DNA from: Candidatus Acidiferrales bacterium
GTDB taxonomy: Bacteria; Acidobacteriota; Terriglobia; Acidiferrales; UBA7541
Length of the DNA: 37,412 bases
NCBI GenBank assembly: GCA_030037355.1
Contig: JASHRL010000240.1
Span: 1 to 37,412, forward strand
Reading direction: 5' to 3'
In this document: piece after piece, positions 26,339-37,412 of the stretch
How the letters are laid out: each line of letters opens with the position of its first letter
How positions within the stretch are numbered: position 1 is the stretch's first letter
Notes under the pieces: model-generated
Databases searched by the model: none
What the model was told of the DNA's origin: nothing
What the model saw: the letters and a program-made list of their open reading frames with translations, nothing else
Position numbers and translations under genes: made by a program

Positions 26339-28042
26339 TCATTTATCCTCGGGAACTTCTTGTGCTGGCAACGACTCCACCCAGCAATAGGGAAGGAACT
26401 TCGCGACGATTTTGCGATGAATGATTCCCAGATTATTCAGCGTCATGTCGCCATCGCCGCTCAAGAGAACAAAACCTTCGCCTGCCGCCTGCGGAGTGAG
26501 CTGCGTGATCCTATCCGGACCCAAATAAAAGCGAAGGCCGTAATCGCAGTTGCGGTTGACTTCTCCAACCGAAAAAAGATGCGAACCAGAAGTCTGCGGA
26601 TCTGCTGAAAGTAAATGCTGAATTTCATGCGCCAGTGGTCGCGTGGAGAGCAGCGGATCAAGTTCCGGCAGGATTCGCGCACCGGCAGCTATGACCAAGC
26701 CAGCGCACACGAGCGACGTGAGCGCAAGGGCATGCCACGCGCGGCGAGCTAGGCTGAGGCATTCGACAGCCACGCCGGTAAAAACCCCAATTAGAATTGC
26801 GACTACAGCGAGTTTGTGGAGACCATTCGCGTAAGGCGCTTCGTAGGGCGGGAGCTTTTGAAAGCCGAACGCGCCGGCGATCCCCAGAATTGCCCACATC
26901 GTGCCAGTTGCCACACCGAGCCACTGGGCTGTTCGCGGAGCCTGCTCGATAACACGAACGTAGGAATGCGCGAGGAGAAGTATGAGCGGCGGAAATATAG
27001 GCAAGATGTATTCCGGCAGCTTCGATTGCGAAAAGCTGAAAAATATCAATGGGAATATCGCCCAGCAAGCGATGAAGAATCCGAAGGAGTTTCGCCATGA
27101 GCCGTCGCGAAAAATGCGGCGGCCATCGAGCGCTGCACCGATCAGCAGGGCCGTCCAAGGTAACAAGCCGAGCAGGACAATCGGACCGAAAAACCAAAAT
27201 GGCTGGCGATGCTGAAAAACGGGCGTGAGATAACGTTGGAAATTGTGCAGGAGAATGAAGGTGCGGAAAAAACTTGGATTGAAATAGGCGCACAGGATAT
27301 ACCAGGGCAATGCAATGATGCAGAAGGACAAGATTGCGAGCGGGTGGAGCAGCCGCATCGCTTCTTTCACGTGTCGAGTTGCGATGGCCCAAAGGAGGAT
27401 GCTTCCACCAGACAAAATTAACGCTGCTGGTCCCTTCGCGAGCGTCGCGAAGCCGAGCGAGACGCCGAGAAAAATCAGGGCAGACTTATCACTTGGTGCT
27501 CCGGAACCCAACGGAGTATTTCTGGCGTTCTTGCCGGCGGCAAGGAACAAGCCATGCTTTTCTAATGCACTGGCGGCGCAAACGAGCGCGAGCGCCAAAC
27601 TCGCCGTGAAAAGCATGTCTGGAGCAGCAGCGCGAGCGAAGGCAATAACGGCCACGCAAGTCGGAAAAATCAGCAGAATCGCCCAGCCCGTCCGCTCACC
27701 GTAGCGCTTCCATCCAAGCCATGCAGTGGCAAGCGCAGCGACGAGTGCGGCAAATGCCGATGGCAGACGCGCGGCCCACTCTGGCGACGGAACCAGTTTG
27801 AAGCCGAGGGCCGCGGTCCAATAATACAGAATCGGCTTCTCGAACCAGGGTGCTCCATAGAGAAGAGGCGTGATCCAATTGCCATTGTGCGCCATGCCTT
27901 GCGCGATCCAGGCGTAGCGCGGCTCATCGGGGCCAAGGAGACCGACTGCGGCAAGCCCGCTGAAAAGGCAGACCAACAACACGATCAACGCGATCACGGC
28001 TGCGGCGATTTTTTGCAAAGACCACGCGCGTTTCGTTTCCAT
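26339..28042 (-). CDS. GT39/ArnT-like membrane glycosyltransferase
   Basis: This is a 567-residue integral membrane glycosyltransferase of the PMT/ArnT type, which uses polyprenyl-phosphate sugars on the periplasmic side. About 11-12 hydrophobic helices are visible. The catalytic acidic motif near the first periplasmic loop is LLGPDEPRYAWIA (D39, E40). FEKPILYYWTAALGFKL follows, as in ArnT-like proteins. A soluble periplasmic domain of about 110 residues forms the C terminus (from about residue 450). Acceptor could be lipid A, another envelope lipid or a protein; no dedicated arn genes are adjacent. It is divergent from the LpxL-like gene (68-85 bases apart) and convergent with the hydrolase gene. 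Confidence 0.86.
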   Translation of the reverse strand: METKRAWSLQKIAAAVIALIVLLVCLFSGLAAVGLLGPDEPRYAWIAQGMAHNGNWITPLLYGAPWFEKPILYYWTAALGFKLVPSPEWAARLPSAFAALVAALATAWLGWKRYGERTGWAILLIFPTCVAVIAFARAAAPDMLFTASLALALVCAASALEKHGLFLAAGKNARNTPLGSGAPSDKSALIFLGVSLGFATLAKGPAALILSGGSILLWAIATRHVKEAMRLLHPLAILSFCIIALPWYILCAYFNPSFFRTFILLHNFQRYLTPVFQHRQPFWFFGPIVLLGLLPWTALLIGAALDGRRIFRDGSWRNSFGFFIACWAIFPLIFFSFSQSKLPEYILPIFPPLILLLAHSYVRVIEQAPRTAQWLGVATGTMWAILGIAGAFGFQKLPPYEAPYANGLHKLAVVAILIGVFTGVAVECLSLARRAWHALALTSLVCAGLVIAAGARILPELDPLLSTRPLAHEIQHLLSADPQTSGSHLFSVGEVNRNCDYGLRFYLGPDRITQLTPQAAGEGFVLLSGDGDMTLNNLGIIHRKIVAKFLPYCWVESLPAQEVPEDK

Positions 28043-28127
28043 CGCGGCTGAGTGTATCAGACGAATCGGTCAACTCTAAAGAAGCACCGCTGGCTCGCGC
28101 AAAACGACTGTGACAGAATGGCGCGCG

Positions 28128-29033
28128 ATGCGCGAATGGTGCGAATATGCCGCCGCCTGGGCGATTCTTAGGTTTCTGGGACTTCTGCCGCGGCCGGTGG
28201 CACGAGCAGTTGCGGCGCAGATCGCGCGATTTCTGTTGCTTTGCAGGCCGACCTTGCGGCGAGCCGCGCTCGTGAATCTTCGCCTCGCATTTCCAGAATG
28301 GTCGGATGCGCAGCGCCGCCAGACAATTCGCGGCATGACGCGTCAACTCGGTTGGATGGCGGCAGAGTTCGCATATTTTCCGCATTGGTCCCGCGAGAAT
28401 ATCGAAGAGCTTGTCGTGATCGATGGCTTTGACAACTTTGAAGCCGCGCGAGCTTTGGGCAAAGGCGTAATTTTTCTGACCGGCCACATGAGCGCATGGG
28501 AAATTGCACCTTTCGCACAGGCAGTCTACGGAAATCCGCTCTCGTTTCTCGCTCGTGCGATTGATAATTCGCGCGTCGACGCGCTCATCAATCGCTATCG
28601 ATGCCTTTCTGGCAACCAACCGATCGAGAAAAACAACGCCGCACGCGCCATCCTGCGCGCACTCCACGACGGAGGCACGATCGGAATCCTGGCGGATCAG
28701 AATACTTCTCTCGACGAAGGAACATTCGTCGATTTTTTCGGCGTTCCCGCTGCGACCACGACGGGGCTTGCGCGCGTCGCCTTGCGGACCGGAGCGGTCG
28801 TCGTTCCTGGTTTTATTTCCTGGGACGATTCCATCCGGAGATACCGGCTGCGTTTCGAGCCTGCGGTGAACCTTGCCCGATCCGATGATGAAGAGGCGGA
28901 TATTCGTGAGGACACGCTCAGATTTAACAAAGTCATCGAGAATTACATTCGCGCGCATCCCGATCAATGGCTCTGGGTACACAAAAGATGGAAGAATCGC
29001 CCGCCGGGAGAGCCGTCGCTGTATTCCTCCTAA
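28128..29033 (+). CDS. LpxL/HtrB-type lipid A (lysophospholipid) acyltransferase
   Basis: This membrane-associated acyltransferase of 301 residues probably transfers a secondary acyl chain to lipid A or its precursor. The catalytic H-x4-E motif is GHMSAWE (H120, E125), preceded by KGVIFLT. Later family elements are GTIGILADQN, FVDFFGVPAATTTGLARVALRTGA and the near-terminal HPDQWLWVHKRWKNRP. One N-terminal hydrophobic helix (AAAWAILRFLGLLP) anchors it. An upstream GTG at 28110 would add six residues; no clear ribosome-binding site decides. lpxD follows on the same strand after 72 bases, consistent with a lipid A role. Confidence 0.9.
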   Translation: MREWCEYAAAWAILRFLGLLPRPVARAVAAQIARFLLLCRPTLRRAALVNLRLAFPEWSDAQRRQTIRGMTRQLGWMAAEFAYFPHWSRENIEELVVIDGFDNFEAARALGKGVIFLTGHMSAWEIAPFAQAVYGNPLSFLARAIDNSRVDALINRYRCLSGNQPIEKNNAARAILRALHDGGTIGILADQNTSLDEGTFVDFFGVPAATTTGLARVALRTGAVVVPGFISWDDSIRRYRLRFEPAVNLARSDDEEADIREDTLRFNKVIENYIRAHPDQWLWVHKRWKNRPPGEPSLYSS

Positions 29034-29105
29034 GGGTTTTGCAAGAAACTAGCAGTGGAGCAAGATTCTCATGGCAGGCCAAAGAGTTTGACGAGGAGCG
29101 AAATC

Positions 29106-30125
29106 ATGAAGCAAACGGCGCAGGAACTTGCGGATCATTTGCATGCAACGCTGGACGGAGACCCAAGCGCACTAATTTCAGGGCTGGCCGGACCAGAAGA
29201 TGCGGGCGCCGAAGATTTAATCTACGTAGATTCTGCGAAGCACCTGCTGCGTTGCGAATCCTCGGCCGCTCGATGCGCGCTGGTCCGCGAAGGATTGAAG
29301 CTTCCGGGGAAGACGCTTATCGTCGTACGCGAGCCGAAACTCGCGTTTGCCAAAGCAGCTGCATGGATGCTGGAGCAGCAGCCAATTGCGTCACGAGTTC
29401 ATCCGACCGCTTTGATTGACGGCTCGGCGATGATTTCGGCAGGAGCGCATATCGGCCCATACGTTGTGATTGAAGAGGGTGCTGTCGTCGGAGCAGAGAC
29501 GGAAATCGGAGCGTTCTGCTTTGTTGGCCGCGGCGCGAAGATCGGCGAGTCGTGCCGGTTGTATCCGCGCGTTACGCTCTATGCCGGCGCGAAATTGGCC
29601 AACCGCGTGATCGTTCATTCGGGAGCGGTGATCGGCGGGGACGGTTTCGGTTACGTTTATGGCGAGGCGCAGAATTGGAAATTTCCGCAGATCGGCGGTG
29701 TCAACATTGACGATGACGTTGAAATCGGGAGCAATTCGACGATCGCGCGCGGATCGCTGGAAACGACGCACATCGAGCGCGGTGTGAAGCTCGATAATCT
29801 TGTGCATGTCGCTCACAATGTCCGCATCGGAGAGAACACAGTCATCGCCGCACAAACGGGAATTTCGGGGAGCTGCGACATTGGCCGGCACGTTTTGATT
29901 GGCGGGCAGGCAGGCCTCGGCGAGCACTGCAAAATCGAAGACGAAGCAATTCTCGGCGGACAATCCGGTATCCTGAATAGCAAAATCATCCGCAGCGGAC
30001 AAATAGTTTGGGGCACGCCGGCGCGCCCGCTCGGCGAATTCAAGAAGCAGTATGCACGATTTGCCCGTTTGCCCGAGCTGGCGGAACGAGTTCGCCAGTT
30101 AGAAGGAAATCGTGACACGAAGTAG
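29106..30125 (+). CDS. lpxD: UDP-3-O-acylglucosamine N-acyltransferase LpxD
   Basis: LpxD adds the N-linked 3-hydroxyacyl chain to UDP-3-O-acylglucosamine, the third step of lipid A synthesis, using acyl-ACP. The protein has 339 residues from the ATG at 29106, which is preceded by GAGGAG. The N-terminal uridine-binding domain (about 1-98) is followed by a left-handed beta helix of hexapeptide repeats from [19 protein letters not shown] onwards. The catalytic histidine lies in [14 protein letters not shown] (H234/H237 region), and GGDGFGYV is the typical loop. The C-terminal helix ends at [10 protein letters not shown]. The stop overlaps the next gene by 14 bases. Confidence 0.95.
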
Positions 30126-30738
30126 TGTGACGCCGCGCCGTGCTAAGGGCGGCAGACATGAGACGCCGCGAATCATCTTGATCACTGGCCAGTGCAGCAG
30201 CGTCGGCAAGACGACGCTCGCCGCCGACATTATTCACGCCTTTCCTGAGCCGGATTGGCTAGCGCTGAAGATAACAGGGCATCATACAGATCGAATCACC
30301 AGCGAGGCCGGGTATGCTTTTCATGCAGAGAGCGACCGGGAAGGGAAGTCGGACACGTCGCGCTACCTCGCCGCAGGAGCGAATCGGTCGTTCTTGGTGG
30401 AGATTCGAGCAGGTTACTTCACGGAGGCTATGCAAGAAATCAATCTGCTGATCGCAGGCGCTGAGACGGTCCTCGTTGAAGGCAATTCAGTCCTCGAATA
30501 TCTGCACCCGTCGTTAGCCCTGCTTGTCCTGGACCCGCGCAAATCTGATTTCAAGCCGTCCGCGCGCAAAGCGCTGAGTCAAATCGACGCTGTAGTCTTG
30601 CGCTCCGCCATTCATACCGCATATTGGCAGGGAATCAATCCGCAGCGGGTCGCCTCGATACCGAATTACCTGCAACCTTTCCACCGGCCTCTCAGAATCG
30701 GGCTGCGCTGCCTTATCCGGCGTTCCCTAGCGAGCTAA
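30112..30738 (+). CDS. MobB-like P-loop NTPase, translationally coupled to lpxD
   Basis: This is a soluble nucleotide-binding protein of 208 residues. The Walker A motif is [10 protein letters not shown] (26-35) after a beta strand RIILIT. The arrangement [17 protein letters not shown] and [11 protein letters not shown] resembles MobB-type proteins, which bind GTP, but no molybdenum-cofactor gene is nearby and the C terminus is different. The start is GTG at 30112, with AAGGA at 30103-30107; it overlaps the lpxD end by 14 bases. A GTG at 30127 is possible. Genomic context suggests a role connected to lipid A or another envelope process, but the function is unknown. Confidence 0.72.
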
Positions 30739-31088: not shown

Positions 31089-33128
31089 ATGTCTGAAGGC
31101 ATGCAAATGCCGGAAGCTCAAATACAGACTGCGACCGCAGTGAAGCGCGCTCGTATCCACGAGAGCGAGCTTGATTCGCGAGTTGCAGATGCCGTCGAGC
31201 GGAGTGTGCAGCATTTGCTTTCGCTGCAGGCTGCGGATGGCTACTGGTGGGGAGAACTGGAAGCCGACACGACGCTGGAGTCTGACCACATTTTGTTGCA
31301 CTTCCTTCGCGGAGACATCAAGAACGACAAAGTTCGGATGCTGGCCAATTATCTCCGTAAAAAGCAGCTTCCGAATGGCGGCTGGAATATCTATCCCGAC
31401 GGCCCAGCTGAGTTGAATACGAGCGTGAAAGCCTACTTTGCGTTGCGGCTCGCGGGCGACTCGGCGAGTTCCCATCATCTCGAGCGTGCGCGAAACGTAA
31501 TCCACGAGTTGGGCGGATTGGAGTCCACGAATTCTTACGTTCGCTTTTATCTTGCCATGACCGGCGCGATTGGCTGGGACATGGTACCGGCGATTCCGCC
31601 AGAACTTTTGCTGCTGCCCAACTGGTTTTTCGTGAATTTGTACGACATGTCTTCGTGGACACGCGCGATTGTCGTGCCGCTGACGATCATTTATGCGCTG
31701 AAACCCGACTGGAAAGCCGGGCATATGCCAAACATTGACGAGCTCTTCGCGGATCCGAATAACAAGCGGAAGGCGCTCGCGTGGAGCCGGAAAGTCATAT
31801 CCTGGCGCAATCTTTTTTTGGCTATCGATCGCGTCTTGAAGATTCATGAAGCGCTGCCCTGGAAGCCGTTTCGCCGCCGGGCTGTCGAGGAGGCCAAGCG
31901 CTGGCTGTTCGAGCATATCGAGCGCACCGAAGGCTTAGCGACAATTTTCCCCGCTATGGCGCATTCGGTTTACGCCATGCTCACGCTGGGTTATCCACCG
32001 GAAGATCCATTGATCATGCGCGAAATGGGCTGGATTTCGACGTTCGAAATCGAAGAGAACGATACACTGCGCATGCAGCCTTGCATTTCGCCCGTGTGGG
32101 ATACCGCTATCGCGATGGTGTCGCTCGAAGAAGCGGGTCTCGACCCGGCTCATCCGTCGCTGCAAACCGCTTCGCAATGGCTGATCGATCATCAAATTTT
32201 GGGGCCGGGCGACTGGCAGGTGAAAAACAAAGATGCGCCGCCGGGCGGCTGGGCTTTCGAGTTTCGCAATGATTTTTACCCGGATGTCGACGATACAGCG
32301 TTCGTATTGATGGCGCTGCAGCCGGTGGAGCATCCTGAGCCTGTTCGATTTGAGCAGGCAGCGCGCCGCGGGATGACGTGGTTGCTCAGCATGCAAAACC
32401 GCGATGGGGGATGGGGCGCATTTGACCGCGACAACGATCATGTCCTGTTGACGCAGATTCCGTTTGCGGATCACAACGCCATGATCGATCCGTCGAGCGC
32501 CGACGTTGCGGCCCGCTCTATCGAGTGCTTGGCGAGATTCGGCTGGTCCGCTTCTCACCCCGCCATGCGGCGGGCATTCGCTTATCTTCAGCGCGAGCAA
32601 ACGCCGGACGGCGCCTGGTATGGACGCTGGGGCTCGAATTATGTCTATGGAACAAGCGGCGTGCTGCGCGCACTTGAAGTTGCGGGATTGGGCGAGAGCA
32701 TGGAAAGCCATCGCGGCATCGCGTGGCTGAAAAAAGTGCAGAACCCCGATGGCGGATTTGGCGAAACACCGCGTTCCTACGCCGACCCGTCGTTGAAGGG
32801 CCAAGGGCCGAGCACAGCATCGCAAACGGCGTGGGGACTAATCGGTCTGCTGGCCGTCGTCCCTCCGGATGATCCTGCTGTGCTGAAAGCTATGGCGTGG
32901 CTCATCGAACACCAGAATGCCGACGGTTCCTGGGATGAGGATGCGTTCACCGGCACGGGATTCCCGTGCGTGTTCTATCTCAAATACCATCTGTACAGGA
33001 ATTCCTTCCCGCTCTATGCGCTGGCGCGTTATCGCAACATGCGAAGGGGCATGCAAAATAGTTTGAAGCCGTTTCAGTTCGACGCCAATGAATTCATTTA
33101 TAGGAATGGACACGGGGGTAAACGATGA
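31089..33128 (+). CDS. shc: Squalene-hopene cyclase
   Basis: Shc cyclises squalene to hopene and hopanol, the first committed step of hopanoid synthesis, at the cytoplasmic membrane. The protein has 679 residues. The catalytic DxDD motif is D399-V-D-D402, in DFYPDVDDTAFVLMAL; by analogy Asp401 protonates the substrate. Several QW-type repeats are visible (for example QNRDGGWGAFD, QTPDGAWYGRWG, QNPDGGFGE, QNADGSWDE) that stabilise the alpha-barrels. An unusual run of about 20 residues precedes the conserved start SRVADAVERSVQHLL. The TGA stop overlaps the ATG of hpnH (ATGA), so translation is coupled to the downstream operon. Confidence 0.97.
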   Translation: MSEGMQMPEAQIQTATAVKRARIHESELDSRVADAVERSVQHLLSLQAADGYWWGELEADTTLESDHILLHFLRGDIKNDKVRMLANYLRKKQLPNGGWNIYPDGPAELNTSVKAYFALRLAGDSASSHHLERARNVIHELGGLESTNSYVRFYLAMTGAIGWDMVPAIPPELLLLPNWFFVNLYDMSSWTRAIVVPLTIIYALKPDWKAGHMPNIDELFADPNNKRKALAWSRKVISWRNLFLAIDRVLKIHEALPWKPFRRRAVEEAKRWLFEHIERTEGLATIFPAMAHSVYAMLTLGYPPEDPLIMREMGWISTFEIEENDTLRMQPCISPVWDTAIAMVSLEEAGLDPAHPSLQTASQWLIDHQILGPGDWQVKNKDAPPGGWAFEFRNDFYPDVDDTAFVLMALQPVEHPEPVRFEQAARRGMTWLLSMQNRDGGWGAFDRDNDHVLLTQIPFADHNAMIDPSSADVAARSIECLARFGWSASHPAMRRAFAYLQREQTPDGAWYGRWGSNYVYGTSGVLRALEVAGLGESMESHRGIAWLKKVQNPDGGFGETPRSYADPSLKGQGPSTASQTAWGLIGLLAVVPPDDPAVLKAMAWLIEHQNADGSWDEDAFTGTGFPCVFYLKYHLYRNSFPLYALARYRNMRRGMQNSLKPFQFDANEFIYRNGHGGKR

Positions 33129-34276
33129 GGTTTCCGCTGAGCCTGACGGCGAACCTGACAAAATATCTGGCCGGAAAGGCCATCCGCGGCGAAAAGAAAT
33201 TTCCGCTGGTCATGATGCTCGAGCCGCTGCACGCGTGCAATCTGACGTGCACGGGTTGCGGGCGCATCCGCGAATACAAGGGCACGATCAATGAAATGCT
33301 GACCGTCGAACAGTGCATCGCCGCGCTCGATGATTGCGGTGCGCCCATCGTTTCCATTTGCGGCGGGGAGCCTTTAATCTATCCGGAAATTGGCCGTCTG
33401 GTGAAGGAGATTTTGGCGCGCAAAAAGAACATCTATCTCTGCACGAATGGGATGTTCATTCGCAAGCGGCTGCAGGAATTCAAGCCGACGTCGCGTTTCT
33501 TCTTCAACGTCCACCTAGATGGCCTGGAGAAAACCCACGATCTTTGCGTCGAACGCGACGGCGTCTTCCGCGATGCCATTGAGGGGATCAAGGCCGCGAA
33601 AGCGGCGGGGTTCCTGGTCTGCTCGAACACGACGATTTACAAAGAGACGGACATCGAGGAAGTCGCCGAGCTTTTCGCCTTTCTACGCACGCTAGGCGTC
33701 GATGGCAATATGCTTTCTCCCGCGTACTCCTACGCCTCGGTCCAGACGAAGGATATTTTCATGTCGCGCGAAGACGTGCATGAAAAATTTCAGCGCGCCA
33801 GCAAGCTTCTGGAACAATTCAACGTCATCACGTCGCCGATTTATATGGAGTTCCTGCGCGGCGAACGCAACTTGATGTGCACGGCATGGGGCAATCCGAC
33901 CTACAATCCGCGCGGATGGAAAGGCCCGTGCTATTTGATGACGGACGAGCACCACAAGACCTTCGGCGATCTGATCAACAACACGCCGTGGGAAAAATAC
34001 GGCTACGGTCGCGACCCGCGTTGCGAAAATTGCATGGTGCAGTCCGGCTATGAGGCTTCCGCTGTGCTCGGCGGCAATCACAAGTTCGGCGATACGTGGA
34101 AAATGCTTCAGTGGCAGGTTTCCGGACGCCTCGGAGGCCGCAAAGGTGCGAATGCCAGTTCCAACGGCGCGCCGAAGCAAAACGGAAACGGGCACAAAAC
34201 GAATAAAACTTCAACCGCTGTCCCTGCAGCGGGCGCGCAAGCCCGGGAAAAGGAAGAGGCCTTCCGCATTCTATGA
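33125..34276 (+). CDS. hpnH: Adenosyl-hopene transferase HpnH (radical SAM)
   Basis: HpnH uses the 5'-deoxyadenosyl radical from S-adenosylmethionine to attach adenosine to hopene, forming adenosylhopane, the precursor of all C35 hopanoids. The 383-residue protein has the radical-SAM motif CNLTCTGC (C38, C42, C45) after LEPLHA. ICGGEPLIYPEIG is the SAM-binding GGEP loop. The C-terminal half contains further cysteines (CTAWGNPTYNPRGWKGPCYL, CENCMVQSGYEAS) of the family. The last 50 or so residues (from about GRLGG) are low-complexity, Asn/Gly/Lys/Ala-rich and probably disordered. It overlaps shc and hpnA by ATGA on both sides. Confidence 0.96.
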   Translation: MRFPLSLTANLTKYLAGKAIRGEKKFPLVMMLEPLHACNLTCTGCGRIREYKGTINEMLTVEQCIAALDDCGAPIVSICGGEPLIYPEIGRLVKEILARKKNIYLCTNGMFIRKRLQEFKPTSRFFFNVHLDGLEKTHDLCVERDGVFRDAIEGIKAAKAAGFLVCSNTTIYKETDIEEVAELFAFLRTLGVDGNMLSPAYSYASVQTKDIFMSREDVHEKFQRASKLLEQFNVITSPIYMEFLRGERNLMCTAWGNPTYNPRGWKGPCYLMTDEHHKTFGDLINNTPWEKYGYGRDPRCENCMVQSGYEASAVLGGNHKFGDTWKMLQWQVSGRLGGRKGANASSNGAPKQNGNGHKTNKTSTAVPAAGAQAREKEEAFRIL

Positions 34277-35298
34277 AGACGTTGGTTACCGGCGCGACCG
34301 GGTTCGTGGGCTCCCACGTTGCCCGGCGGCTGGTCGCTTCTGGTGAAGCTGTTCGTGCGCTCGCGCGGAAGGGAAGCCGCCGTCAGGCGCTGGACGGAGT
34401 AGCCGTCGAGTGGGCCGAAGGTGACTTGCGCGACGAATCTTCGCTCGTTCGCGCTCTCGACGGGATTGATCGTGTGTACCACGTCGCCGCAGATTATCGC
34501 CTCTGGGCGCGCAATCCACAGGAAATTTACGAGAGCAACGTGACGGGAACGAAAAATCTTCTCGCGGCGGCTCTTCGCGCGCGAGTTCAGCGATTTGTTT
34601 ATACGAGCACCGTCGCGACGATTGCCGTCCCTCGCGGCAATGCCGTGCCGGACGAAACGAATCGCGCGACGGTCGACGAGATGGTCGGAAACTACAAAAA
34701 GTCGAAATTGCTCGCGGAGCAGGAGGCGCTACGCGCCGCGCATGAAGGCTTGCCAGTCGTGATCGTCAATCCGACAACGCCGGTCGGGCCGGGGGACTGG
34801 AAGCCGACGCCGACAGGCAAGATTATTTTGGATTTTCTGCAGGGGAAGATGCCCGCCTATGTGGATACGGGCTTGAATTTCGCGCCTGTCGAAGATGTCG
34901 CCGAAGGCCATCTTCTGGCGGCTCAGAGAGGAAAAATCGGCGAGCGATATTTGCTTGGCGGACGCAATATGACGCTGAAGGAATTCCTCGATGCGCTCGC
35001 GAAGATCACGAACCTCGCCGCGCCAACGCGAAGGATTTCACACTCCATGGCGCTCTTCGCGGCCTATGCAGATGCAGCTTTTTCGCGCGTCTCCGGCCGT
35101 GAGCCGCGCATACCGATTGAAGGAGTGCGCATTGCGCGACATACGATGTTCATCAACGACTCGAAGGCGCGCAAGGAATTGGGCTATCAGCCCGGACCTG
35201 TAGAAGGAGCCCTCGAACGCGCTGTGGAGTGGTATGCTGGCAATAGGTATGTGAATCTTCCGGACCGTGCGCGGAGTGCGCGGGCTTCTGCTGCTTGA
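34273..35298 (+). CDS. hpnA: Hopanoid-associated NAD-dependent sugar epimerase HpnA
   Basis: This is an extended short-chain dehydrogenase/epimerase of 341 residues associated with hopanoid loci; its exact reaction is not firmly established in the literature that I know. The nucleotide-binding motif GATGFVG (7-13) is followed by VAADYRLWA, TSTVATIAVP and the catalytic-type YKKSK. NPTTPVGPGDWKPTPTG and the C-terminal TRRISHSMALFAAYADAAF are typical HpnA features. The start shares ATGA with the hpnH stop. hpnG starts two bases after its stop, or overlaps if a TTG start is used. Confidence 0.93.
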   Translation: MKTLVTGATGFVGSHVARRLVASGEAVRALARKGSRRQALDGVAVEWAEGDLRDESSLVRALDGIDRVYHVAADYRLWARNPQEIYESNVTGTKNLLAAALRARVQRFVYTSTVATIAVPRGNAVPDETNRATVDEMVGNYKKSKLLAEQEALRAAHEGLPVVIVNPTTPVGPGDWKPTPTGKIILDFLQGKMPAYVDTGLNFAPVEDVAEGHLLAAQRGKIGERYLLGGRNMTLKEFLDALAKITNLAAPTRRISHSMALFAAYADAAFSRVSGREPRIPIEGVRIARHTMFINDSKARKELGYQPGPVEGALERAVEWYAGNRYVNLPDRARSARASAA

Positions 35299-35300
35299 AC

Positions 35301-36065
35301 ATGGCCGTGAAAATCCTGATCACATTCGCACTGGAAACGGAATTCGCTCCTTGGCGGCGAGTGCGTTCGTTTGGCGGCGGCGCGGGAATGGCCTTCCCAG
35401 TTTACGAAAGCGCGATCGGTGATGCGGCGATGCGCGTTGTGCTGACAGGTGTTGGTCCCATGCACGCACAGAGAGTTGCTGCCGAAGCCTTGAAATGGAA
35501 GCCGGACATGTGCATCTCATCCGGCCTTGCGGGCGCTTTGCGATCGGACCTTGGCATCGGAGACGTTTTTTTCGCACGTAGCGTGAAAGAGTTGGAAAGT
35601 GGCCGGACAATAGGTTGCAGCCCAGAATTAGCGGCGGCTGCGCAGAAGCTTGGCGTCGGCCTTATGGAGCAATTGCTTTCGACTTCCAGCATGGTTCTCA
35701 CGGCAGAAGGGAAGGCGCGGCTCGGCAGCATGGCGGAAGCGGTTGATATGGAGAGCTTCTCCGTTCTTGCGGAGGCCAACGCGCAAGGCGTTCCAGCGAT
35801 CGCTGTTCGCGCGATCAGCGATTCGGCTGACGAAAATCTGCCGATGGATTTTCAATCTTTCTTGAATGAACGGGGCAGCTTGGATCGGTCAAAGGTGGCG
35901 CGAGCTCTTGCGCGCGCCCCTTACAAGTTGCCGGGCCTTGTTCGTCTCGGCCGAAATGCCAAACGGGCAGCAACAAGACTGGCGCAATTCTTGGACGTTT
36001 ATGTGGCGGACATCACCAAGCATTCCGCTTCGCAAATGGAAATGGCCGAGGCGTATCACAAATGA
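35301..36065 (+). CDS. hpnG: Hopanoid-associated phosphorylase HpnG
   Basis: HpnG belongs to the purine nucleoside phosphorylase fold and removes adenine from adenosylhopane, giving a (phospho)ribosylhopane. From the ATG at 35301 the protein has 254 residues; a TTG two codons earlier overlaps the hpnA stop. Characteristic parts are ILITFALETEFAPW at the start, VVLTGVGPMHAQRVAAEAL, ISSGLAGALRSDLGIGDVFF and AEAVDMESFSVLAEANAQGVPAIAVRAISDSAD, the last holding the ribose-binding MES and the catalytic-region Asp. The stop shares ATGA with the first dehydrogenase gene. The C-terminal 60 residues are basic and helical. Confidence 0.92.
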   Translation: MAVKILITFALETEFAPWRRVRSFGGGAGMAFPVYESAIGDAAMRVVLTGVGPMHAQRVAAEALKWKPDMCISSGLAGALRSDLGIGDVFFARSVKELESGRTIGCSPELAAAAQKLGVGLMEQLLSTSSMVLTAEGKARLGSMAEAVDMESFSVLAEANAQGVPAIAVRAISDSADENLPMDFQSFLNERGSLDRSKVARALARAPYKLPGLVRLGRNAKRAATRLAQFLDVYVADITKHSASQMEMAEAYHK

Positions 36066-37168
36066 GCTCCACGACCGCGCACATTGGGAGTGATTCGCGC
36101 GAAAATCGCGCAAACGGCAAGATGCTGGCCGGAGTCTATCGCGGCAAGGGCCGTGTCGTTTGCGAAGAAGTTCCAATTCCTGAAATCGGCGAGGGCGAAG
36201 TTCTTTTTCGCGTGGCCGCGTGCGGAATCTGCGGAACGGATATCAAGAAAATCGCGCACGGTTTTGCGGAGCCGCCGCAAATCTTTGGGCACGAGCTTGC
36301 TGGCACAGTGGTCGAAGTCGGGCGCGGCGTGCGCAAATTCAAGCCGGGCGATCGCGTGGTCAGCTTTCACCATGTTCCTTGCGAAAAGTGCTTTTACTGC
36401 GAACGCAAACTATTCTCGCAATGTTCGCAGTATAAGAAAGTGGGCCTAACGGCGGGCTTCACCCCGAATGGTGGCGGCTTTGGGCAATATGTTCGCGCCA
36501 TGCCCTGGATTGTCGAGCGCGGCATGCTATTGCTTCCGGCGGACATCACATTTGAGGAAGCGACATTCATCGAGCCTGTCAATACCGCAGCCAAGGCGGT
36601 TTGGAAAGCGCATGTCGCAGAAGGCGAATTCGCTGTCGTCATCGGCCAGGGGCCCATCGGAATGCTCTTGACCGGCCTGTGCAAACTGAAAGGCGCGGAA
36701 ATTGTTACTACGGATCCTTTGGCGGCGCGACGCGCTGCGAGCCTGACGCTCGGCGCAACGGCCAGCTTCGATCCATCATCAGATAGCATAGAGGCGGAAG
36801 TTCGCGAGCGCACGCACGGCAGAGGTGCCGACGTCGTCCTGCTGGCGGCGCCGCATCCGAAATTGGTTAGCGAAGCGCTCGCCATGGCTCGGCCCGGCGG
36901 TCGCGTCATGCTATTTGCTCATAACGACCCGGTGTTGCGTATCGAATTTCCTGCGGCGGCAGTTGGCATTGAAGAGAAGGAAATTCTCGGAAGTTATAGC
37001 GCATCAATTACCGAACAACAGGAGTATGCTGGGATAGTGTTCGAGCGGCGTATGCCGGTGGCCCAGTTGGTTTCCCACCGCTTCTCGACCGAGCGAATAG
37101 CGGACGCGCTGGAACTGGCGGGGCATCCGAAGGAAGATACTTTGAAAGTGGTGATCACGCATTCATGA
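36062..37168 (+). CDS. Zinc-dependent medium-chain alcohol/polyol dehydrogenase (first of two)
   Basis: This is a medium-chain dehydrogenase of 368 residues related to threonine/sorbitol dehydrogenases, oxidising an alcohol or reducing a carbonyl with NAD(P). The catalytic zinc site is in CGICGTD (C57) and GHE (H77, E78). The structural zinc site is complete (C107, C110, C113, C121). The Rossmann motif is GQGPIG (195-200), and D218 at the end of the next strand suggests NAD over NADP. A hydrophilic 20-residue extension precedes MLAGVYRGKGR. ATGA overlaps link it to hpnG upstream and to a second dehydrogenase downstream. Its position suggests a role in hopanoid side-chain metabolism; this is inference. 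Confidence 0.9.
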   Translation: MSSTTAHIGSDSRENRANGKMLAGVYRGKGRVVCEEVPIPEIGEGEVLFRVAACGICGTDIKKIAHGFAEPPQIFGHELAGTVVEVGRGVRKFKPGDRVVSFHHVPCEKCFYCERKLFSQCSQYKKVGLTAGFTPNGGGFGQYVRAMPWIVERGMLLLPADITFEEATFIEPVNTAAKAVWKAHVAEGEFAVVIGQGPIGMLLTGLCKLKGAEIVTTDPLAARRAASLTLGATASFDPSSDSIEAEVRERTHGRGADVVLLAAPHPKLVSEALAMARPGGRVMLFAHNDPVLRIEFPAAAVGIEEKEILGSYSASITEQQEYAGIVFERRMPVAQLVSHRFSTERIADALELAGHPKEDTLKVVITHS

Positions 37169-37412
37169 AGACGGATTCCAATGGGGTAATGACAGCAGCG
37201 GTCCTCTATGGCCGCGAAGATCTGAAAGTCGAGCGCGTCGGCATTCCCGCGGTCGGCGAAGACGAAATTTTGGTGCGCGTACAGGTGGCGCTGACCTGCG
37301 GCACAGACCTTAAAGTTTGGAAACAGGGCTCGCATCCGCGCATGATTCATCCGCCAGCGATTTTTGGCCATGAGCTGGCTGGCATCGTGGAAGAAACCGG
37401 TTCGGCTGTTGC
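37165..37412 (+). CDS. Zinc-dependent alcohol dehydrogenase (second of two), N-terminal part only
   Basis: The first 82 codons of a second medium-chain dehydrogenase are visible; the rest is beyond the window. It begins MKTDSNGVMTAAVLYG, overlapping the previous stop by ATGA. The catalytic zinc ligands appear as TCGTD (Cys) and FGHELAG (His, Glu), in the same layout as the preceding gene, but overall the two sequences differ (for example LTCGTDLKVWKQGSHPRM here). They may form a heteromeric enzyme or act on successive steps. Structural zinc residues and cofactor preference cannot be judged. Confidence 0.85.
   Translation, partial: MKTDSNGVMTAAVLYGREDLKVERVGIPAVGEDEILVRVQVALTCGTDLKVWKQGSHPRMIHPPAIFGHELAGIVEETGSAV

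Follow-up and report, generated by a model that had tools for sequence, protein, structure and literature searches.

Paired zinc-dependent dehydrogenases of acidobacterial hopanoid operons as candidates for ribosylhopane reduction

Introduction

Bacteriohopanepolyols are membrane lipids of bacteria. Their fossils see wide use in geology, and they rank among the most widely used bacterial biomarkers of sediments. In the established pathway to their side chain, HpnH makes adenosylhopane, from which HpnG strips the adenine to yield ribosylhopane. The enzyme for the conversion of ribosylhopane to bacteriohopanetetrol was still stated to be not established in November 2025 (PMC12583986), in keeping with the preliminary description of the locus studied here, in which this reductase was said to lack a firm assignment. 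A cell-free extract of Methylobacterium organophilum is cited as reducing ribosylhopane (Bodlenner et al. 2015, as cited in PMC12583986); this is the reaction that we propose below for one of two dehydrogenases.

For Acidobacteria, work published in 2017 listed two associated genes without an assigned function, ug1 downstream of hpnG and ug2, which lies upstream of hpnC and codes for a Zn-binding alcohol dehydrogenase, and noted that strains of subdivisions 1 and 3 make almost only tetrafunctional polyols and lack hpnK (PMC5462960). The two dehydrogenases described here, DH1 and DH2, occupy the positions of ug1 and ug2 (~350 aa), respectively, in those acidobacterial clusters, and by position DH1 would be ug1 and DH2 would be ug2. 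Whereas ug1 and ug2 were treated there as unconnected genes of different clusters, DH1 and DH2 form one pair of medium-chain (MDR) dehydrogenases whose genes are adjacent in most families. The preliminary description had put the locus forward as the best candidate for an undescribed system in the window; the recognition of both enzymes as one MDR pair is indeed new, but their association with hopanoid genes had already been listed in 2017. Also new here are the split in predicted cofactor between the two enzymes, a family with DH2 only, a sister family that is nearly hopanoid-free, and the limits of the pair's distribution.

A dehydrogenase pair within a hopanoid operon

The window, meaning the whole stretch of 37,412 nucleotides that was analysed, carries at 31089-37412 (+ strand) a compact operon with the order shc-hpnH-hpnA-hpnG-DH1-DH2, the last gene being partial (Table 1). 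Most junctions within this operon are four-base ATGA overlaps. They include the two that had been described earlier as joining hpnG to a pair of medium-chain dehydrogenases, which we confirmed at 36062-36065 (hpnG stop and DH1 start) and 37165-37168 (DH1 stop and DH2 start). SHC, HpnH and HpnA all score above their NCBIfam cut-offs. HpnG falls below the TIGR03468 cut-off of 187 bits, yet TIGR03468 is its best NCBIfam match. Moreover, HpnG residues E16, M152/E153 and D176 correspond to the catalytic Glu, Met-Glu and Asp of nucleosidases and vary little or not at all among 22 orthologues; by likeness to the MTA/SAH nucleosidase family they would be catalytic. The name HpnG is given because of synteny and these conserved nucleosidase-type residues.

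Table 1. Genes of the hopanoid operon in the window.
Gene and product	Position	Strand	Remarks
shc (hpnF), squalene-hopene cyclase, operon gene 1	31089..33128	+	TIGR01507 743 bits, cut-off 431
hpnH, adenosylhopane synthase (radical SAM)	33125..34276	+	TIGR03470 429 bits, cut-off 225
hpnA, hopanoid-associated SDR of unknown function	34273..35298	+	TIGR03466 454 bits, cut-off 368
hpnG, adenosylhopane nucleosidase/phosphorylase	35301..36065	+	TIGR03468 120 bits; ATG 35301, stop codon ends 36065; alternative TTG start 35295
DH1, zinc-dependent medium-chain dehydrogenase, predicted NAD-type	36062..37168	+	PF08240 + PF00107
DH2 5' part (82 aa), zinc-dependent medium-chain dehydrogenase, predicted NADP-type	37165..37412	+	PF08240 (in-window part)

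The window stops at 37412 because it is the whole of contig C202, which ends there. The first 197 bases of another contig from this genome (C71, locus L050) are identical to the window end, an exact overlap, and this contig completes DH2 to 354 aa and continues with hpnC-hpnD-hpnE, whose products were identified by sequence and synteny. Across the two contigs, the joined order in the source genome is shc-hpnH-hpnA-hpnG-DH1-DH2-hpnC-hpnD-hpnE. The join is supported by a congener (G004) with the same gene order, in which most of the proteins are 86-98% identical and HpnG is 76% identical. The dehydrogenase pair thus sits between hpnG and hpnC within one nine-gene hopanoid operon. The preliminary description had seen only the 82 in-window residues of DH2, which is the stronger reductase candidate.

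Directly upstream of the operon lie lipid A-type genes (ArnT-like, HtrB/LpxL-like acyltransferase and LpxD; window 26339-30125), and the space between lpxD and shc (30112-30738) encodes a 208-aa protein that gave no more than a weak match to MobB (17 bits against a cut-off of 76). A search with Rfam across the window returned no match.

Conservation of gene order across families

Across 62 hpn-linked DH1 loci from nine families, the gene directly upstream of DH1 is hpnG in 51 and hpnA in 10, and one locus lies at a contig end. In 62 DH2 loci, the gene directly downstream of DH2 is hpnC or hpnD. In family f1, hpnG, DH1 and DH2 are contiguous in all 36 assembled loci; hpnC comes next in 33 of these, and the other three loci end without an hpnC match. 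This hpnG-DH1-DH2 order is also found in f2, f4, f5, f7, f60 and part of f11. Conservation of the pair beside hpnG in relatives, on which the preliminary description had staked its proposal, was therefore borne out in f1 and eight other families, a recurrence that rules out chance adjacency.

The exceptions are informative as to which neighbours each gene keeps. In f11 the pair is contiguous in some cases and parted in others. The parted form has two clusters, shc-hpnH-hpnA-hpnG-DH1 and DH2-hpnC-hpnD-hpnE, which lie ~500 kb apart in one genome (G094), so that DH1 remains beside hpnG and DH2 beside hpnC. Family f38 has the order hpnA-DH1-DH2-hpnD, with hpnG elsewhere in most genomes. In f8, five genomes have DH2 without a DH1 orthologue, and in four of them the order is hpnG-DH2-hpnC. 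That DH1 and DH2, when parted, both retain hpn genes as neighbours is hard to explain unless both act in the pathway. Lying between confirmed hpn genes and conserved in this position across lineages, DH1 and DH2 qualify as members of the hopanoid operon, and we consider a role of the hpn-linked pair in hopanoid biosynthesis very probable.

Some of the operons examined differ in hpnH. In place of HpnH, the operons of G030 and G035 (L071, L082) encode a radical-SAM protein that is ~25% identical to it, and HpnH is missing from those of G018, G028, G014 and G036 (L056, L059, L069, L072). All six genomes encode a different HpnH type elsewhere (540+ bits, TIGR03470), and this looks like HpnH replacement.

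Enzyme class and predicted cofactors

Both proteins have the GroES-like N-terminal domain and the Rossmann cofactor domain of the MDR superfamily, as judged from Pfam domains and AlphaFold matches. The AlphaFold model of DH1 (mean pLDDT 91.7) has the MDR fold, and both this model and that of a 98% identical DH2 orthologue (sequence from G004, L051; mean pLDDT 91.9) match MDR alcohol and polyol dehydrogenase structures with a TM score of about 0.8-0.9. The catalytic (C57/H77/E78/E171) and structural (C107/C110/C113/C121) zinc ligands of DH1, together with Asp218, are invariant in 24 orthologues, in agreement with the complete zinc sites and the NAD-type Asp first noted in the window sequence, and all catalytic and all four structural ligands are complete in 62 of 62 DH1 sequences. 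In DH2, the catalytic His, both Glu and the four structural Cys are present in 68 of 68 sequences, and the first zinc ligand is Cys in 58, Asp in nine and unread in one. The nine with Asp are all f1 genomes (G005, G008, G016, G017, G020, G026, G027, G030 and G035); the same Cys-to-Asp change of a catalytic-zinc ligand occurs in haloarchaeal glucose dehydrogenase.

As a general rule in MDR enzymes, an acidic residue (Asp or Glu) at the NAD-selecting position goes with NAD preference, and a small residue followed by Lys or Arg with NADP preference. This position is Asp or Glu in 62 of 62 DH1 sequences and Gly, Ala or Val in 67 of 68 DH2 sequences, most of which have Lys or Arg next. By this rule, DH1 is predicted to be NAD-type and DH2 NADP-type.

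The closest solved relatives are polyol and ketose oxidoreductases such as the ketose reductase 1e3j. PDB 1e3j and 1pl6 (NADP(H)-dependent ketose reductase/sorbitol dehydrogenase) share the fold and the catalytic zinc ligands Cys/His/Glu/Glu, and the NADP-type motif of 1e3j, a small residue plus Arg/Lys, is also found in DH2. However, identity to these two is 24-29%, the gene context is different, and the Arg-Tyr substrate pair is absent. In sorbitol dehydrogenase this pair contacts the polyol (R298-Y299 in the human enzyme); by alignment, DH2 has His-His at this position and DH1 has Ser-Tyr, which makes a simple sorbitol-type substrate unlikely. Of plasmid-borne proteins, the one closest to DH2 (42% identity) comes from Rhodococcus, where its gene shares an operon for sugar-alcohol catabolism with genes for an FGGY kinase and a class II aldolase. 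The NCBIfam models that DH1 matches best include TIGR00692 (L-threonine 3-dehydrogenase) and NF041097 (scyllo-inosose 3-dehydrogenase IolM), but with 149 and 153 bits where 458 and 450 are required, it belongs to neither family. Threonine dehydrogenase, IolM, galactitol-1-phosphate dehydrogenase and other NCBIfam functions were all rejected as far below cut-off.

Possible role in side-chain biosynthesis

DH1 and DH2 may form a two-enzyme module that was recruited into the hopanoid operon and would modify the ribose-derived side chain. We infer substrates, reaction directions and division of labour as follows. The ribosylhopane released by HpnG would present an aldose-like end, for whose reduction to bacteriohopanetetrol one zinc MDR enzyme should be enough. 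Most likely, DH2 would use NADPH and its catalytic zinc to reduce the open-chain C35 aldehyde to bacteriohopanetetrol, and DH1 would use NAD+ for the reversible oxidation of a side-chain hydroxyl of the tetrol, tuning or diversifying the head group, a step that can be likened to that of sorbitol dehydrogenase after aldose reductase in the polyol pathway. DH2 is preferred as the reductase because it is of the predicted NADP type and is kept where DH1 is absent. To this reading as a whole, with DH2 as an NADPH-dependent ribosylhopane reductase and DH1 as an NAD-dependent polyol dehydrogenase, we assign a probability of roughly 0.35. The chances that at least one of the two enzymes reduces ribosylhopane are about even, and the assignment of this reaction to DH2 specifically is tentative. 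By analogy with the polyol pathway, the pair might even constitute a dedicated redox branch, in which DH2 would be the missing ribosylhopane reductase of Acidobacteria and DH1 would make an undescribed keto- or stereo-altered bacteriohopanepolyol, although this bolder version is unlikely.

Distribution of the pair and other candidate reductases

Among 247 genomes of the phylum, shc is present in 36 of the 38 with both orthologues versus 27 of the 209 without. The associated Fisher value (p about 1e-23) ignores shared ancestry, and the argument therefore draws its weight from gene order and from the pattern across families. Within f5, for example, G059 has hpnH and the pair, and G044 and G052 have neither. 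The two genomes with the pair but without shc are G268 (84% complete, with hpnA adjoining the pair) and G278 (family f49, 100% complete). The expected co-occurrence of the pair with hopanoid genes in Acidobacteria thus holds for the great majority of pair-bearing genomes, but it fails for the 27 shc genomes that lack the pair and for f49, where the pair is nearly always found without shc.

Many Acidobacteria with shc and hpnH keep the order shc-hpnH-hpnA-hpnG without both orthologues (L115, L117-L124), and if bacteriohopanetetrol is made there, another enzyme must act. In the slot after hpnG of pair-less clusters, the ORFs inspected included no obvious common replacement reductase. Outside the phylum, no nearby DH1 or DH2 homologues were found in five plasmid hpn loci (Cupriavidus, Burkholderia, Azospirillum, Roseomonas and Streptomyces), and a scan of genome contigs with narrow peptide patterns, which are insensitive for other phyla, returned acidobacterial loci only. 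Chloracidobacterium thermophilum produces bacteriohopanetetrol without ug2 (PMC5462960). The pair is therefore absent from many producers, which rules it out as a universal hopanoid enzyme and makes it at most a lineage-specific solution for ribosylhopane reduction.

The existence of such producers also fits a different arrangement, in which neither dehydrogenase makes bacteriohopanetetrol, this being left to a general or other reductase such as HpnA, and the pair oxidises and re-reduces a side-chain hydroxyl to give changed stereochemistry or a keto- or extra-functionalised head group. The opposite cofactor preferences of DH1 and DH2 would suit such an oxidise-then-reduce pair, and HpnA, an SDR that has been suggested for this very step (PMC5462960), is the oxidoreductase retained in most pair-less acidobacterial clusters. 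However, the pair-less G117 has no HpnA match in its cluster, hpnA is reported to be non-essential for bacteriohopanetetrol in Burkholderia cenocepacia, and Rhodopseudomonas is without it (PMC5462960). Moreover, a paired mechanism would not allow for DH2 alone, as seen in f8, and almost every acidobacterial polyol that has been analysed to date is tetrafunctional (PMC5462960). We regard this arrangement as doubtful.

The division of labour could also be the reverse, as the link of DH1 to hpnG or hpnA is at least as tight as any of DH2. DH1 with NADH would then be the ribosylhopane reductase, and DH2 would carry out a second redox step or some other reduction. The position of DH1 directly after hpnG, which it keeps when DH2 goes with hpnC, favours this, as does the finding that the post-hpnG gene is part of cluster C in a larger number of subdivisions (SD3 among them) than show ug2 beside hpnC (PMC5462960). 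Nevertheless, f8 has hpnG with DH2 in the place of DH1, and the NAD-type Asp of DH1 would, as a general rule, suit oxidation better than biosynthetic reduction, so that a reversal appears quite improbable.

A nearly hopanoid-free sister family

In f49, about ten of 14 genomes have DH2, DH1 adjoins it in nine sampled loci, and shc is present in only one of the 14. Judging by neighbour names read from translations, DH1-DH2 lies downstream of queF-like and proline-dehydrogenase-like genes (L132, L133, L156-L162), and in some genomes nucleoside-salvage-like genes are near the pair. More distant adjacent MDR pairs away from hpn genes occur in f42, f55, f57 and f70; loci with such adjacent DH1-like and DH2-like genes are L129, L136, L148 and L151. 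In quick trees, the f49 sequences group in a clade of their own for both DH1 and DH2; the hpn-linked clade of DH2 has a support of 97 with f49 outside, and the DH1 tree leaves the branching order of f49, f38 and the rest unresolved.

These distant pairs suggest an old two-enzyme unit. Together with f49, they indicate that the pair may predate its link to hopanoids and may have been recruited. Since the f49 pair is nearly always without shc, it can serve some other pathway, and strict hopanoid specificity of DH1 and DH2 is weakened accordingly. One could go further and suppose that the pair serves a non-hopanoid pathway throughout, such as sugar-alcohol or nucleoside-sugar turnover, and sits in the operon by history or co-regulation. 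This is distinctly unlikely: where clusters split, DH1 and DH2 each keep to hpn genes rather than to each other, the f38 pair has kept its hpnA and hpnD neighbours despite the relocation of hpnG, and the f49 genes are a clade apart. Finally, it is very unlikely that DH2 acts in the squalene part of the pathway (hpnC, hpnD, hpnE) and not on the side chain, despite its hpnC or hpnD neighbour in 62 loci and the listing of ug2 in the squalene cluster in 2017, because squalene can be made with HpnC, HpnD and HpnE alone (Pan et al. 2015, as summarised in PMC5462960) and DH2 directly follows hpnG in f8 and DH1 in most families.

Implications

Their place within the hopanoid operon of many Acidobacteria makes DH1 and DH2 good and easily tested candidates for the step from ribosylhopane to bacteriohopanetetrol. 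With the pair anchored next to hpnG in a lineage from which hopanoid producers have been cultured, the candidate list for the ribosylhopane reductase becomes short and concrete. Even if the reductase assignment fails, genetic tests should reveal what DH1 and DH2 add to the lipid.
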